NCBI RefSeq assembly: GCF_900114775.1
Contig: NZ_FOUE01000001.1
Coordinates: 186,001 to 250,000 of the forward strand
Origin: Marinobacter zhejiangensis
Lineage (GTDB): Bacteria; Pseudomonadota; Gammaproteobacteria; Pseudomonadales; Oleiphilaceae
DNA length: 64,000 nt
Direction: 5' to 3'
Shown here piece by piece: positions 2,070-33,505 of this stretch. A program made the position numbers and the translations under genes. The first letter of the stretch is position 1. The number at the start of each line of letters is the position of its first letter. The notes beneath the pieces are model-generated. The model saw nothing but the letters and a program-made list of their open reading frames with translations. It had not been told where the DNA came from and did no database searches.

Positions 2070-3140
2070 TCAGAGTGAGCGCAGCAGTGTTTCAGTCTGT
2101 TCCCAACCGATGCACGGATCGGTAATCGAGCAGCCGTAGAGCAGATCGTCACTGTCGTCCTGGCGACCTGCTTCGAGGAAGCTCTCCAGCATCAGGCCAC
2201 GGATATGCCGGTTACCCGCCGCTTTCTGGGCCATAACCTCACGGGCGATATCCAGCTGCCGCTCTGCCTGTTTCTGGGCATTGTCATGGCTGCAGTCCAC
2301 CATCACCGCCGTTGACAAACCCGCCGCTTCGAGCGCATCCACGGCTTCGGCAATGCTGCCGGCGTCGTAGTTGGTGATGCCGCGACCACCCCGCAGGACG
2401 ATATGGGTATCTACATTGCCAGCCGTTGTAACCATGGCCGGTAGTCCCTGTTCGGTAATCCCCAGGCGATGATGGGAATGGGCTGCAGACTTCATCGCAT
2501 TGATGGCCACAGCCAGGCCGCCGTCTGTGCCATTCTTGAAACCAACCGGCATCGGCAAACCACTGACCAGTTCCCGATGAATCTGCGACTCTGTCGTCCG
2601 CGCGCCAATCGCCGTCCAGCTCACCAAGTCATCCAGGTAGTCCATGGCCAGCGGGCTCAGGGCTTCTGTGGCAATGGGCAGCCCCAGCCGTGCCAGGTTC
2701 AACAGCAGGCGACGGGAACGCTGCAAGCCCTGGTTGAGATCTCCGGCTCCGGTGCGCTCCGGGTCGTACAACAACCCTTTCCAGCCTACCGTGGTGCGGG
2801 GTTTTTCCAGGTACGCCCGAACCACGATCAGGAAGCGGTCGCTGACTTCATCCGCCAAGGCAGCCAGTTTCTCGCCATACTCCAGTGCGGCCACTTCGTC
2901 GTGAACCGAGCAGGGGCCGACAACCACCAGCGTCCGGCTGTCTTCCCCCCGCAACACCCGGCGGATAGCAGCACGGTGGCGCTCGATCTGGGCAGCCAAT
3001 TCCGTGGATACCGGCAGTTCGGTACGAAGCTGCACGGGTGTGGGCAGAATCATGGCATTGCTCTCCCTGGCCGGTATGGTTGTTGGCTGAGCAGCCCCTG
3101 TGGCGGACTCAAGGGTGTCAATGGTCAGCGGCATATTCAT
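2070..3140 (-). CDS. 3-deoxy-7-phosphoheptulonate (DAHP) synthase, class I (AroF/AroG/AroH type)
   Basis: Catalyses the first step of the shikimate pathway, condensing phosphoenolpyruvate with erythrose 4-phosphate, in the cytosol. The 356-residue product is a full-length class I enzyme: GPCSVHD near residue 76 is the substrate-binding start of the barrel, followed by RAYLEKPRTTVGWKGLL, the family signature VGFKNGTDG, and VDCSHDN with metal/PEP ligands. Which feedback class it belongs to (Tyr, Phe or Trp) cannot be assigned by eye. Expression is probably attenuated: the 265-base 5' leader holds an aromatic-rich leader peptide and an intrinsic terminator immediately before this start codon (see the separate entries). 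It is convergent with the LysE exporter. Confidence 0.95.
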   Translation of the reverse strand: MNMPLTIDTLESATGAAQPTTIPARESNAMILPTPVQLRTELPVSTELAAQIERHRAAIRRVLRGEDSRTLVVVGPCSVHDEVAALEYGEKLAALADEVSDRFLIVVRAYLEKPRTTVGWKGLLYDPERTGAGDLNQGLQRSRRLLLNLARLGLPIATEALSPLAMDYLDDLVSWTAIGARTTESQIHRELVSGLPMPVGFKNGTDGGLAVAINAMKSAAHSHHRLGITEQGLPAMVTTAGNVDTHIVLRGGRGITNYDAGSIAEAVDALEAAGLSTAVMVDCSHDNAQKQAERQLDIAREVMAQKAAGNRHIRGLMLESFLEAGRQDDSDDLLYGCSITDPCIGWEQTETLLRSL

Positions 3141-3170: not shown

Positions 3171-3204
3171 AAAAAAGCCCCGGCTGGGCTACCAGTCGGG
3201 GCTT
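3171..3204 (-). terminator. Intrinsic terminator in the DAHP synthase leader (probable attenuator)
   Basis: On the minus strand AAGCCCCGACTGG and CCAGCCGGGGCTT form a 13-bp stem with one A-C mismatch and the loop TAGC, followed directly by six T. It lies only 31 bases before the DAHP synthase ATG, and the nearest gene upstream reads the other way (secretin-like gene from 3484), so it cannot serve to end an upstream minus-strand gene. Its 5' arm/loop (TGGTAGCC, 3187-3194) can instead pair with GGCTGCCA (3216-3223), which in turn can pair with GGCAGCC (3238-3244). This is the layout expected of a terminator/antiterminator switch. Confidence 0.8.
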
Positions 3205-3271
3205 CTTGAGTCCGGTGGCAGCCTGGTTTTTTTGCCGGGCTGCCTTCCTCGTTGTTCGGTCGATGAAGATC

Positions 3272-3349
3272 TTATGGGCGGCCCGGGCTCTGGCTAAAAT
3301 AAAAGCCATAACCAAACCACCAGAAAAACACAGCAGCAACCGCAGCCAT
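3272..3349 (-). CDS. Leader peptide of the DAHP synthase attenuator, 25 aa, aromatic-rich
   Basis: A 26-codon frame (with TAA stop) inside the untranslated leader of the DAHP synthase gene. Residues 8-18 read FFWWFGYGFYF: five Phe, two Trp and two Tyr codons in eleven. Such density of the pathway's end products, sited between a promoter and a terminator, is the hallmark of ribosome-stalling leader peptides in attenuators of amino-acid genes. The ribosome site is weak (CCCTGAACGG before ATG) and an in-frame TTG at 3370 is an alternative start. An overlapping frame encoding MAFILARARAAHK and on to the terminator exists but lacks the aromatic run. Function is inferred from composition and position. 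Confidence 0.75.
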   Translation of the reverse strand: MAAVAAVFFWWFGYGFYFSQSPGRP

Positions 3350-3404
3350 CCGTTCAGGGATAACTGACAAAACATTCAATTGACAGGTCGCGTGTGTCGT
3401 CTTC

Positions 3405-3443
3405 ATGCTGAACACTATATAACCCGGGTTTCAACCAATGCAA
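3405..3443 (-). promoter_or_regulatory. Candidate promoter for the DAHP synthase leader transcript
   Basis: TTGCAT (3443-3438) and TATAGT (3419-3414) are spaced by 18 bases on the minus strand, predicting a start near 3405 and a leader of about 265 bases that would contain both the leader peptide and the terminator. The rest of 3141-3483 holds only this leader and the start region of the divergent secretin-like gene. Confidence 0.45.
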
Positions 3444-3483: not shown

Positions 3484-4266
3484 ATGGCCTGTCTACAACC
3501 CAAATTCGCCCTGCGCACCCTGTTACTGCTGGGCAGTCTGCTGCTGTCGCTACCTCTGCTGGCCGCCACCCAAAGCTGGCAACTGCATAACCGCCCCGCC
3601 AGTGACGTAGCCAGCCAGCTCCGCCAGCTCTACCCGACAGAACAGGCCGCCATCACCGCCCAGGGACAACAGCTGTTCGTTCGAGGCGAAGCGGCCATTC
3701 TTGAAGAAATCGATCAGCTTATTGAAACCATGGATGTTGCCCCGGTGCAGTTTCGCGTCACCGTCCGCAGCCTCGGCCAGGACAACGGTGTGCGCCAGGG
3801 CGCTGGCGTGAGCATTACCAACAATAATGTCAACGTCGGTGGTGAGCACCGGGTAACTTCGACCCAGCGGGTTCGCGAGCAGTCATTGATCATTCTCGAC
3901 GGCCAGTCCGCTCACATCCACTCCGGTCAGATTCGGGTAGTGCCGGTGGCCGTTCAGGGAGGATTCAATCCGGCGGCACTTTATCAACAAGTGCGCATAC
4001 GCAGCGGTTTTATCGTCAACCCCCGGCTGATTTCAGAGCGCCAGGTGGAGCTGAATGTGATGGCATTCGATAACATGCCGGACGAAGACCAGCCGGGGTT
4101 CGAAACCCAGGCTGTCATGACCTCACGTCGCATCACCCCAGGCTCCTGGGTTGAACTGGGCAGCACCAGTCAGACCCACCAGGGCAGTGAAACCGGCCTG
4201 GTGTACGAAGTGGGCCAGCATCGCCTGGAAAATCAGCGCTACGAAGTACAGGTCGACATCCTCTGA
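3484..4266 (+). CDS. Secretin-like short periplasmic protein (NolW/secretin N-domain type)
   Basis: A 260-residue exported protein with a signal peptide (ALRTLLLLGSLLLSLPLLAA, cleavage near residue 28). The region after it, SWQLHNRPASDVASQLRQLYPTE and on to IDQLIETMDVAP, resembles the short N-domains of secretins (type II/III secretion and type IV pilus outer-membrane channels), followed by a beta-rich part resembling the start of a secretin C-domain. At 260 residues it lacks the full channel, and no secretion or pilus genes lie nearby, so it is not a functional GspD or PilQ. It may be a periplasmic adaptor or a stand-alone secretin-fold lipoprotein relative. Function unknown. The start region is divergent from the DAHP synthase leader. 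Confidence 0.6.
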   Translation: MACLQPKFALRTLLLLGSLLLSLPLLAATQSWQLHNRPASDVASQLRQLYPTEQAAITAQGQQLFVRGEAAILEEIDQLIETMDVAPVQFRVTVRSLGQDNGVRQGAGVSITNNNVNVGGEHRVTSTQRVREQSLIILDGQSAHIHSGQIRVVPVAVQGGFNPAALYQQVRIRSGFIVNPRLISERQVELNVMAFDNMPDEDQPGFETQAVMTSRRITPGSWVELGSTSQTHQGSETGLVYEVGQHRLENQRYEVQVDIL

Positions 4267-33424: not shown

Positions 33425-33505
33425 GTGCAGGGACTGAATTTGACTACCGCGCGCAGCGTTCTGACCTCGCGCGCAACACGATGGTGGCGATGGCGTACCG
33501 GCTGA
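33425..33505 (+). CDS. trpL: Trp operon leader peptide, 26 aa with WWRW
   Basis: A 26-codon frame starting GTG after AGGGAG (33410-33415, nine bases of spacing). Residues 20-24 read WWRWR: three Trp codons in four, the classic signal of ribosome stalling when charged tRNA-Trp is short. It precedes trpE by 115 bases. Segment GCGTTCTGAC inside the peptide (33456-33465) can pair with GTCTGAACGC (33523-33532), and the latter overlaps GCAGTGT (33518-33524), which can pair with ACACTGC (33543-33549). No T-run terminator was found in the leader, so the output may be Rho-dependent or translational. Confidence 0.7.
   Translation: MQGLNLTTARSVLTSRATRWWRWRTG

Follow-up and report, generated by a model that had tools for sequence, protein, structure and literature searches.

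A Phe/Trp/Tyr leader peptide and a probable transcription attenuator upstream of a DAHP synthase gene of Marinobacter zhejiangensis

In the 64 kb stretch of Marinobacter zhejiangensis DNA analyzed herein (hereafter, the window), a DAHP synthase gene is preceded by a small open reading frame (ORF) encoding the residues FFWWFGYGFYF and by a terminator. The locus thus raises the question of whether the entry enzyme of the pathway is controlled by a leader that reads Phe, Trp, and Tyr together, and in which direction such a switch would operate. A preliminary description of this DNA had proposed an aromatic-sensing attenuator, and had made this reading depend on an alignment of relatives with conserved aromatic codons and covarying stems. 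In our alignment, the aromatic run was kept in all of the 79 Marinobacter relatives with upstream DNA and the stems carried compensatory changes, and Phe, Trp, and Tyr codons were found together in every leader collected (121/121), all of which supported the proposal.

Layout of the locus and the leader peptide

On the minus strand, the leader ORF, two repeat-like segments, a U-tract terminator, and the DAHP synthase gene starting at ATG 3140 follow one another in this order (Table 1). Among solved structures, the best matches of the DAHP synthase are called Tyr-sensitive and further matches Phe-sensitive, and, judged by this protein, M. mobilis was the closest of the named relatives (87% identity). 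The terminator stem CCCCGACTGG/CCAGCCGGGG (3201-3192/3187-3178), which is lengthened at its outer end by G-C and A-U pairs and has a single A.C mismatch, and the U tract TTTTTT (3176-3171), ending 30 nt upstream of the DAHP synthase ATG, confirmed that a terminator with six T precedes this gene. The ORF at 3484 lies on the plus strand and points away from the leader, and therefore, as had also been claimed, no upstream minus-strand gene ends at the terminator. Its assignment to a plus-strand gene was rejected because the U tract was found on the minus strand only and no gene ends on the other side. The terminator pattern was matched in 107 of 108 loci, the remaining one (L039) having a TTTCTT tail.

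Table 1. Positions of the features of the leader and its DAHP synthase gene in the window.
Feature	Positions	Strand	Basis
DAHP synthase, class I AroF/G/H type, 356 aa (putative regulated gene)	2070-3140	minus	NF009395 and TIGR00034 above cut-off; PF00793
Segment E, terminator 3' arm and U tract, CCAGCCGGGGCTTTTTT	3171-3187	minus	covariation, terminator pattern
Segment D, 5' side of the terminator including its loop, GCCCCGACTGGTAGCC; pairs with C as antiterminator	3187-3202	minus	folding, covariation
Segment C, GGCTGCCACCGG; partner of B or D	3212-3223	minus	folding, covariation
Segment B, GGCAGCCCGGC; partner of A or C	3234-3244	minus	folding, covariation
Segment A, within the peptide tail codons, GCCCGGGCCGCC	3277-3288	minus	masked-ribosome folds (pairs with B), covariation
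Aromatic control codons (putative), FFWWFGYGFYF	3296-3328	minus	F, W, and Y all kept in 121/121 leaders
Leader peptide ORF (probable start), 44 codons and stop, MKTTHATCQLNVLSVIPERMAAVAAVFFWWFGYGFYFSQSPGRP	3272-3406	minus	ATG and open frame in 80/80 loci
Predicted promoter, -35 TTGCAT (3443-3438), 18-nt spacer, -10 TATAGT (3419-3414)	3414-3443	minus	position conserved

Nine of the eleven codons of the run are aromatic (5 F, 2 W, and 2 Y), and in the 64 kb window, read in all six frames, there was no other 11-codon stretch with at least nine F, W, or Y. When 300 sequences of 64 kb were simulated by a second-order Markov chain of the window, none contained a stretch with nine aromatic codons, and stretches with eight occurred at 0.003 per sequence.

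The preliminary description had assigned the run to a 25-residue peptide. Its frame and the run are indeed present; the start at ATG 3346, however, is probably wrong. A Met equivalent to ATG 3406 followed by a frame open into the run was conserved in all 80 Marinobacter loci (window included), whereas the codon at 3346 was Met in 23% of them. The 25-codon version was rejected because of this poor conservation, and the leader peptide probably starts at ATG 3406 and comprises 44 codons, with the stop codon at 3274-3272. Neither Pfam nor NCBIfam gave a family above the curated cut-off for this ORF. Its codons C-Q-L-N (CTGTCAATTGAATG, 3386-3373, minus strand) hardly varied in Marinobacter, even at most third codon positions, which might be due to the way translation starts on a leaderless mRNA or to an RNA or DNA site not yet recognised. 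Among 19 leaders from several families, the N-terminal half of the peptide was not conserved.

With box patterns that were picked after the alignment had been viewed, a -10-like box ending exactly 7 nt upstream of the equivalent of ATG 3406 was found in 74 of the 80 Marinobacter loci, and a TTG-type -35 box at a spacing of 18 nt in 68 loci and 16 nt in 6 loci; a strict consensus promoter scan matched no promoter. No Shine-Dalgarno sequence was visible by eye before ATG 3406. Because the conserved box lies 7 nt from the ATG and the usual spacing between a -10 box and the start site was used to place the 5' end, the leader RNA is predicted to begin at or just before ATG 3406, giving a nearly leaderless mRNA.

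As for the rest of the genome, the region 600 nt upstream of its second DAHP synthase gene (L002) contained at most three aromatic residues per 11 codons, and a leader profile search gave a single match in M. zhejiangensis. In another Marinobacter genome (G015, 99% complete), the only DAHP synthase match scored like the other paralogue, and the leader-linked gene seems to have been lost or missed. Elsewhere in the window, a GTG-started small ORF, VQGLNLTTARSVLTSRATRWWRWRTG (33425-33505, plus strand), precedes trpE (match from 33696) and is perhaps a Trp leader peptide; no obvious U-tract terminator was seen beside it by eye.

Conservation of the leader and its relation to P15

The Marinobacter set consisted of the best 80 of 323 relatives, chosen by DAHP synthase sequence alone, from which L008 with its 25 bases of upstream DNA was dropped; in L061, the leader was seen with a longer upstream stretch. 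In the order searched, which we take to be Pseudomonadales, a leader profile search of 390 genomes was carried out, and 34 matches outside Marinobacter, mostly the best ones, were inspected. A leader with a downstream DAHP synthase was identified in 29 of them, belonging to families f1, f7, f20, f38, and f43 (one, L179, was left out of later counts because a different frame had been picked), and no DAHP synthase lay within the fetched stretch of the other five (E 0.0066 or worse). In a further family, f36, an aromatic leader (e.g., FGFSYWYWFSPGVPGG) with a DAHP synthase occurred in 10/10 loci fetched from the 15 genomes with a match to the small RNA P15 discussed below. In f20 and several f43 loci, among those listed, a GGAG-like motif stands shortly 5' of the leader ATG.

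The three kinds of aromatic codon were all present within the last 20 codons of the 121 leaders (80 from Marinobacter and 28 + 13 others, six families), of which the 41 non-Marinobacter ones had been picked via the leader or P15, so that the unbiased set is Marinobacter only. The run itself was rewritten between families, for instance as YFFYGYWF, FGFSYWYWF, and YWYFGYGYF.

The idea that such a leader precedes every DAHP synthase gene of the order was rejected, since it was found in two of 20 upstream regions from other families (L112 and L114). The enzymes of these two loci were closest to that of the window (57-59%), and the 18 enzymes whose upstream regions lack the leader were at 46-54%. 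One of these 18, L120, showed seven aromatic residues in ten, and was rejected as a leader because the frame lacks an ATG upstream of the run and shares sequence with the end of a longer ORF. A class-level search matched nine of 369 genomes, i.e., G000 (the M. zhejiangensis genome), G055, and seven weak ones, none of these seven with a DAHP synthase in the locus, and no true leader case was found beyond the order in the genomes sampled. A covariance model (R1), which was built without the f20, f43, and f36 leaders and was not used as evidence, matched, over the full length and on the correct strand, all of 12 f20/f43 loci (14-35 bits), 7 of 10 f36 loci, and none of 18 upstream regions without a leader, with a noise of up to 27.6 bits for terminator matches on the other strand and 31.1 bits for L205, a locus without DAHP synthase.

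Between the terminator and the DAHP synthase gene, a second small aromatic-rich ORF was noticed in 25 of 30 loci inspected, 23 of them with a Shine-Dalgarno-like motif, under a picking rule that favoured both aromatic content and such a motif. The loci were L150-L162, L164, L165, L168, L171, L174-L178, and L181, together with L054 and L061 in Marinobacter; MNRYYRNYRYDWRFSSVTTALTPLPRTLS is an example, and TGGCGATTTAGC (WRFS) often occurs. Five of these ORFs had no Pfam or NCBIfam match above the cut-off. Room for the second ORF exists in only 2/79 Marinobacter loci, and the window lacks this ORF. Where present, it might act as an additional leader at the translational level.

A search of the window with 4227 Rfam families, including the amino acid leader families (Trp, Phe, His, and others), gave no match at the gathering threshold. 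Family RF00627, "Pseudomonas sRNA P15", matched 5 of 13 loci given, all from f20, at 96-112 bits, and was above the cut-off in 20 of the 390 order genomes (15 in f20 and 5 in f43), the f43 genomes scoring 57-95 bits and those of f36 giving intermediates of 26-53 bits. None of the Marinobacter genomes included was among the hits. The window scored 18.6 bits at 3308-3177 (minus strand) against the gathering threshold of 70 bits, and is not a member by score; terminator-only matches, namely P15 on the other strand (19.9) and sar RNA (22.4), scored better. The link between the window and P15 is therefore suggested by gene context, leader peptide, and segment order, and not by score. Both stand before a DAHP synthase gene and share the segment order, the P15 model starting in aromatic codons (GYWFS...) and ending with a terminator; they differ in that Rfam files P15 as a gene-type RNA. 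The RF00627 model covers the coding sequence of an aromatic leader peptide plus the attenuator, and the label may need change.

According to excerpts of the sources, P15 is one of 17 small RNAs of P. aeruginosa (Livny et al., 2006, as cited in PMC2375449), and was guessed from synteny to be a possible riboswitch (PMC2527527). We read it as the terminated product of the DAHP leader attenuator, of which a small RNA detectable in P. aeruginosa is what would be expected. Our literature search returned no report of P15 as a terminated attenuator and no stated function for it; with the present reading, P15 would gain a function that can be tested.

Competing helices and the sign of the switch

The five segments A to E can form two chains of helices, A:B + C:D and B:C + D:E, which are mutually exclusive. 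The pairs given in the preliminary description, C (3223-3216) with D (3194-3187) and B (3244-3238) with C, were recovered as described, and so was the pairing of CCGGGC (3286-3281) with GCCCGG (3240-3235), except that the A:B helix turned out to be longer than stated, namely GCC-c-GGGC-c-GCC (3288-3277) with GGC-a-GCCC-GGC (3244-3234).

Compensatory changes were found in both chains. In an alignment of 93 distinct leader rows out of 100, from which one antiterminator pair split by an alignment gap was omitted, 91.0% of the cells of chain A:B + C:D were paired, with 24 double-changed cells versus 5.9 after shuffling, and 96.5% of those of chain B:C + D:E, with 53 versus 8.6; neither count was reached in any of 500 shuffles. 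Each chain had eight pairs with a double change, a number reached by 2/500 and 1/500 shuffles, respectively, and the count of pair types was reached by 30/500 and 76/500. When the partners were slid against each other, the paired cells fell to 10-61% and the covariation score did not exceed 0.057 for the first chain (0.093 in register) and 0.050 for the second (0.121 in register). For chain A:B + C:D, slides of -1 and +3 columns gave 25 and 28 double-changed cells versus 24, so that this count alone is not decisive, and the slides gave 6-11 double-changed pairs versus 8, with paired cells at 10-44% versus 91%. By eye, C/D reads GGCTGCC/GGTAGCC in the window, GACTGCC/GGTAGTC in L156, and GACTGCC/GGCAGTC in L161; one alignment position is U-A in f20 and A-U or C-G in f43, and GCCAAGCTGCC/GGCAGTTTGGC in L171 is a compensatory case for A/B.

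The sign of the switch, which the preliminary description had left undecided by eye, was addressed by masked-ribosome folding. Only the RNA up to D was folded, with the part covered by the ribosome removed (edge P+14, codons counted from 0) and ribosome footprint sizes taken as known. In the window, a ribosome with its A-site on codons 28-36 left 8.3-8.8 A:B and 10.3-10.8 C:D pairs, and a ribosome at the stop codon 7.0 B:C and 3.3 C:D pairs. The first two Phe codons gave a weaker antiterminator (A:B 6.4-6.8 and C:D 8.6-9.0 pairs), the last Phe codon fell on the wrong side with the edge at P+16 (A:B 1.3 and B:C 5.8), and folds were mixed for the Ser and Gln codons 3' of the run. In this model, the Ser-Gln-Ser spacer would roughly set the border between stall and stop. 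The folding thus points to read-through upon stalling: a ribosome on the aromatic codons is predicted to favour the antiterminator (the last codon being borderline), and one at the stop codon to free the terminator.

This behavior extended beyond the window. In 101 of 108 loci, stalling increased the pairing of D with upstream RNA by more than one pair relative to the stop state; over all loci, the means were 10.9 versus 6.0 D pairs in the 80 Marinobacter loci and 10.5 versus 6.9 in the 28 others; the seven with a difference of at most one pair were the near relative L003 together with L149, L158, L160, L162, L163, and L164. Shuffling of the spacers reduced the mean difference from 4.9 to 1.8 in Marinobacter and from 3.6 to 0.5 in the others, with only 30/108 loci singly beyond their shuffled spacers by 2 sd.

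The complete transcript at equilibrium always folded the terminator, and therefore the switch must be kinetic, i.e., decided before E is transcribed; in known attenuators, too, the decision falls before the terminator is completed. In the absence of a ribosome, segment A of the window paired with the codons of the run (about 11 pairs) and B:C formed on emergence, the RNA up to D being a mixture. The D pairs were then 10.7 versus 10.9 in the stalled state in Marinobacter and 10.0 versus 10.7 elsewhere. The computed fold of the growing ribosome-free RNA (A with the run, then B:C) points towards termination; a his-like rule, by which an untranslated leader terminates, was left unsupported because of the mixed folds of the RNA up to D.

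Proposed mechanism, rival readings, and known attenuators

The leader has the parts of a leader-peptide attenuator, namely a short aromatic-rich ORF, an intrinsic terminator, and mutually exclusive helices that, as computed, are linked to the position of the ribosome. We consider it highly probable that the DAHP synthase gene is under ribosome-mediated transcription attenuation by this leader, with charged tRNA-Phe, tRNA-Trp, and tRNA-Tyr being read jointly. In the mechanism proposed here, promoter use, ribosome stalling, and the regulatory response are predicted. Transcription would start at or a few bases from ATG 3406, and the first ribosome would load on the nearly leaderless 5' end. With Phe, Trp, and Tyr all plentiful, the ribosome would translate the whole run, reach the stop codon, and cover A, upon which B:C would pair, D would be free, and the D:E terminator would form, so that transcription would end after a leader RNA of about 235 nt. 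If any one of the three is scarce, the ribosome would stall on the run, and the Ser-Gln-Ser spacer would leave A outside the ribosome. The exposed A would then pair with B, C would hold D, the terminator would be pre-empted, and the DAHP synthase gene would be transcribed. Such a leader would explain how three end products set one entry enzyme, which leaders reading a single amino acid do not do, and a probably leaderless attenuator in a gammaproteobacterium would mean tight coupling between the first ribosome and the polymerase.

More tentatively, and with considerable doubt, an order-wide "any aromatic" gate on the shikimate pathway may be envisaged, in which transcription of a DAHP synthase gene would be governed by a single mixed leader throughout Pseudomonadales, with P15 as its terminated product. 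The ancestral form would have carried, downstream of the terminator, a further aromatic-rich uORF (...WRFS...) as a translational tier; nearly all Marinobacter would since have lost this uORF, and the leader left to them would have become leaderless.

The aromatic run might instead sense mainly one or two amino acids (e.g., Trp and Phe), with the Tyr codons, or a large part of the run, being retained for RNA pairing or for the peptide. The near-fixed third bases, i.e., GGC before FYF in Marinobacter and GGG TAT TGG in nine f20/f43 rows, are consistent with this reading, as is the GGGUA of these f20/f43 rows, whose possible partner is UACCC downstream of the stop codon, a pairing also present in the P15 model; single stall sites are also enough in the folding model. 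However, F, W, and Y were all kept in the 121 leaders despite the rewriting of the run between families, and stalls at most run codons led to the same fold, so that we regard the narrower sensor as rather unlikely. The conserved ORF and aromatic codons, the place before the DAHP synthase gene, and the terminator and antiterminator chains argue against a P15-like trans-acting small RNA on other mRNAs with an incidental peptide frame, which is quite improbable in spite of the gene-type entry of the P15 counterpart in Rfam and of the trans role published for peTrpL, an attenuator-encoded leader peptide (PMC7298713, in excerpt). A trans role may, however, exist in addition to attenuation.

Two further readings place the function in the peptide. 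TnaC is a peptide that arrests its own translation when a free amino acid is available, and an arrest of this type by a free aromatic amino acid would account for the near-invariance of C-Q-L-N in Marinobacter, for which a pure codon sensor has no need. Nevertheless, the N-terminal half varied across the 19 leaders compared and stalling in excess amino acid has the wrong sign in the folding model, making nascent-chain arrest very unlikely. Least credible of all is a functional hydrophobic micropeptide followed by the terminator as a constitutive brake: the run is hydrophobic and 44 codons are long for a leader peptide, but the competing stems covary, the tail codons double as segment A, and the small ORF lacks a Pfam or NCBIfam family above the curated cut-off.

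The attenuator reading places the locus beside several known systems. The trp, pheA, and his attenuators of E. coli combine product-specific leader codons, alternative helices, and a U-tract terminator; each reads one amino acid, whereas the Marinobacter leader would read three at the pathway entry. For the aroF gene of E. coli, a gammaproteobacterial DAHP synthase gene with a proposed leader RNA, attenuation has been hypothesised in a source seen in excerpt. In Shewanella, RNA motifs are predicted for aroF and aroH, with aroF listed as "attenuator sensing tyr-tRNA" citing Camakaris 1980 (PMC2659441); in the portion of the source available, this entry, likened here by description alone, concerns Tyr only and has no mixed leader peptide. 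These motifs are also named in an excerpt of PMC8632094, which describes the uORFC-13-1 motif of Acholeplasma before aroF as a uORF that contains Phe codon(s) and lies next to a terminator; it differs from the present leader in having Phe only and a ribosome binding site, and comprises 24 sequences from Acholeplasma and environmental DNA. Mixed aromatic codons (Phe-Tyr-Phe) before a DAHP synthase gene are found in the aroF leader of C. glutamicum, a proposed attenuator (PMC4046766), which is likened by description alone, belongs to another phylum, and has FYF with no Trp codon named in the excerpt of that source. The reference list of the same paper includes a title reporting, for C. glutamicum ilvBNC, a leader peptide that lacks a ribosome binding site. 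No prior report of a three-aromatic leader was retrieved by the literature search; Panina 2001 and Vitreschak 2004, cited works that by their titles deal with aromatic regulation and attenuation in proteobacteria, may list sites of this kind. Compared with these systems, the leader described herein would be a classical attenuator in kind, and what is new is the run for three amino acids, a start that is probably leaderless, and the interpretation given to P15.
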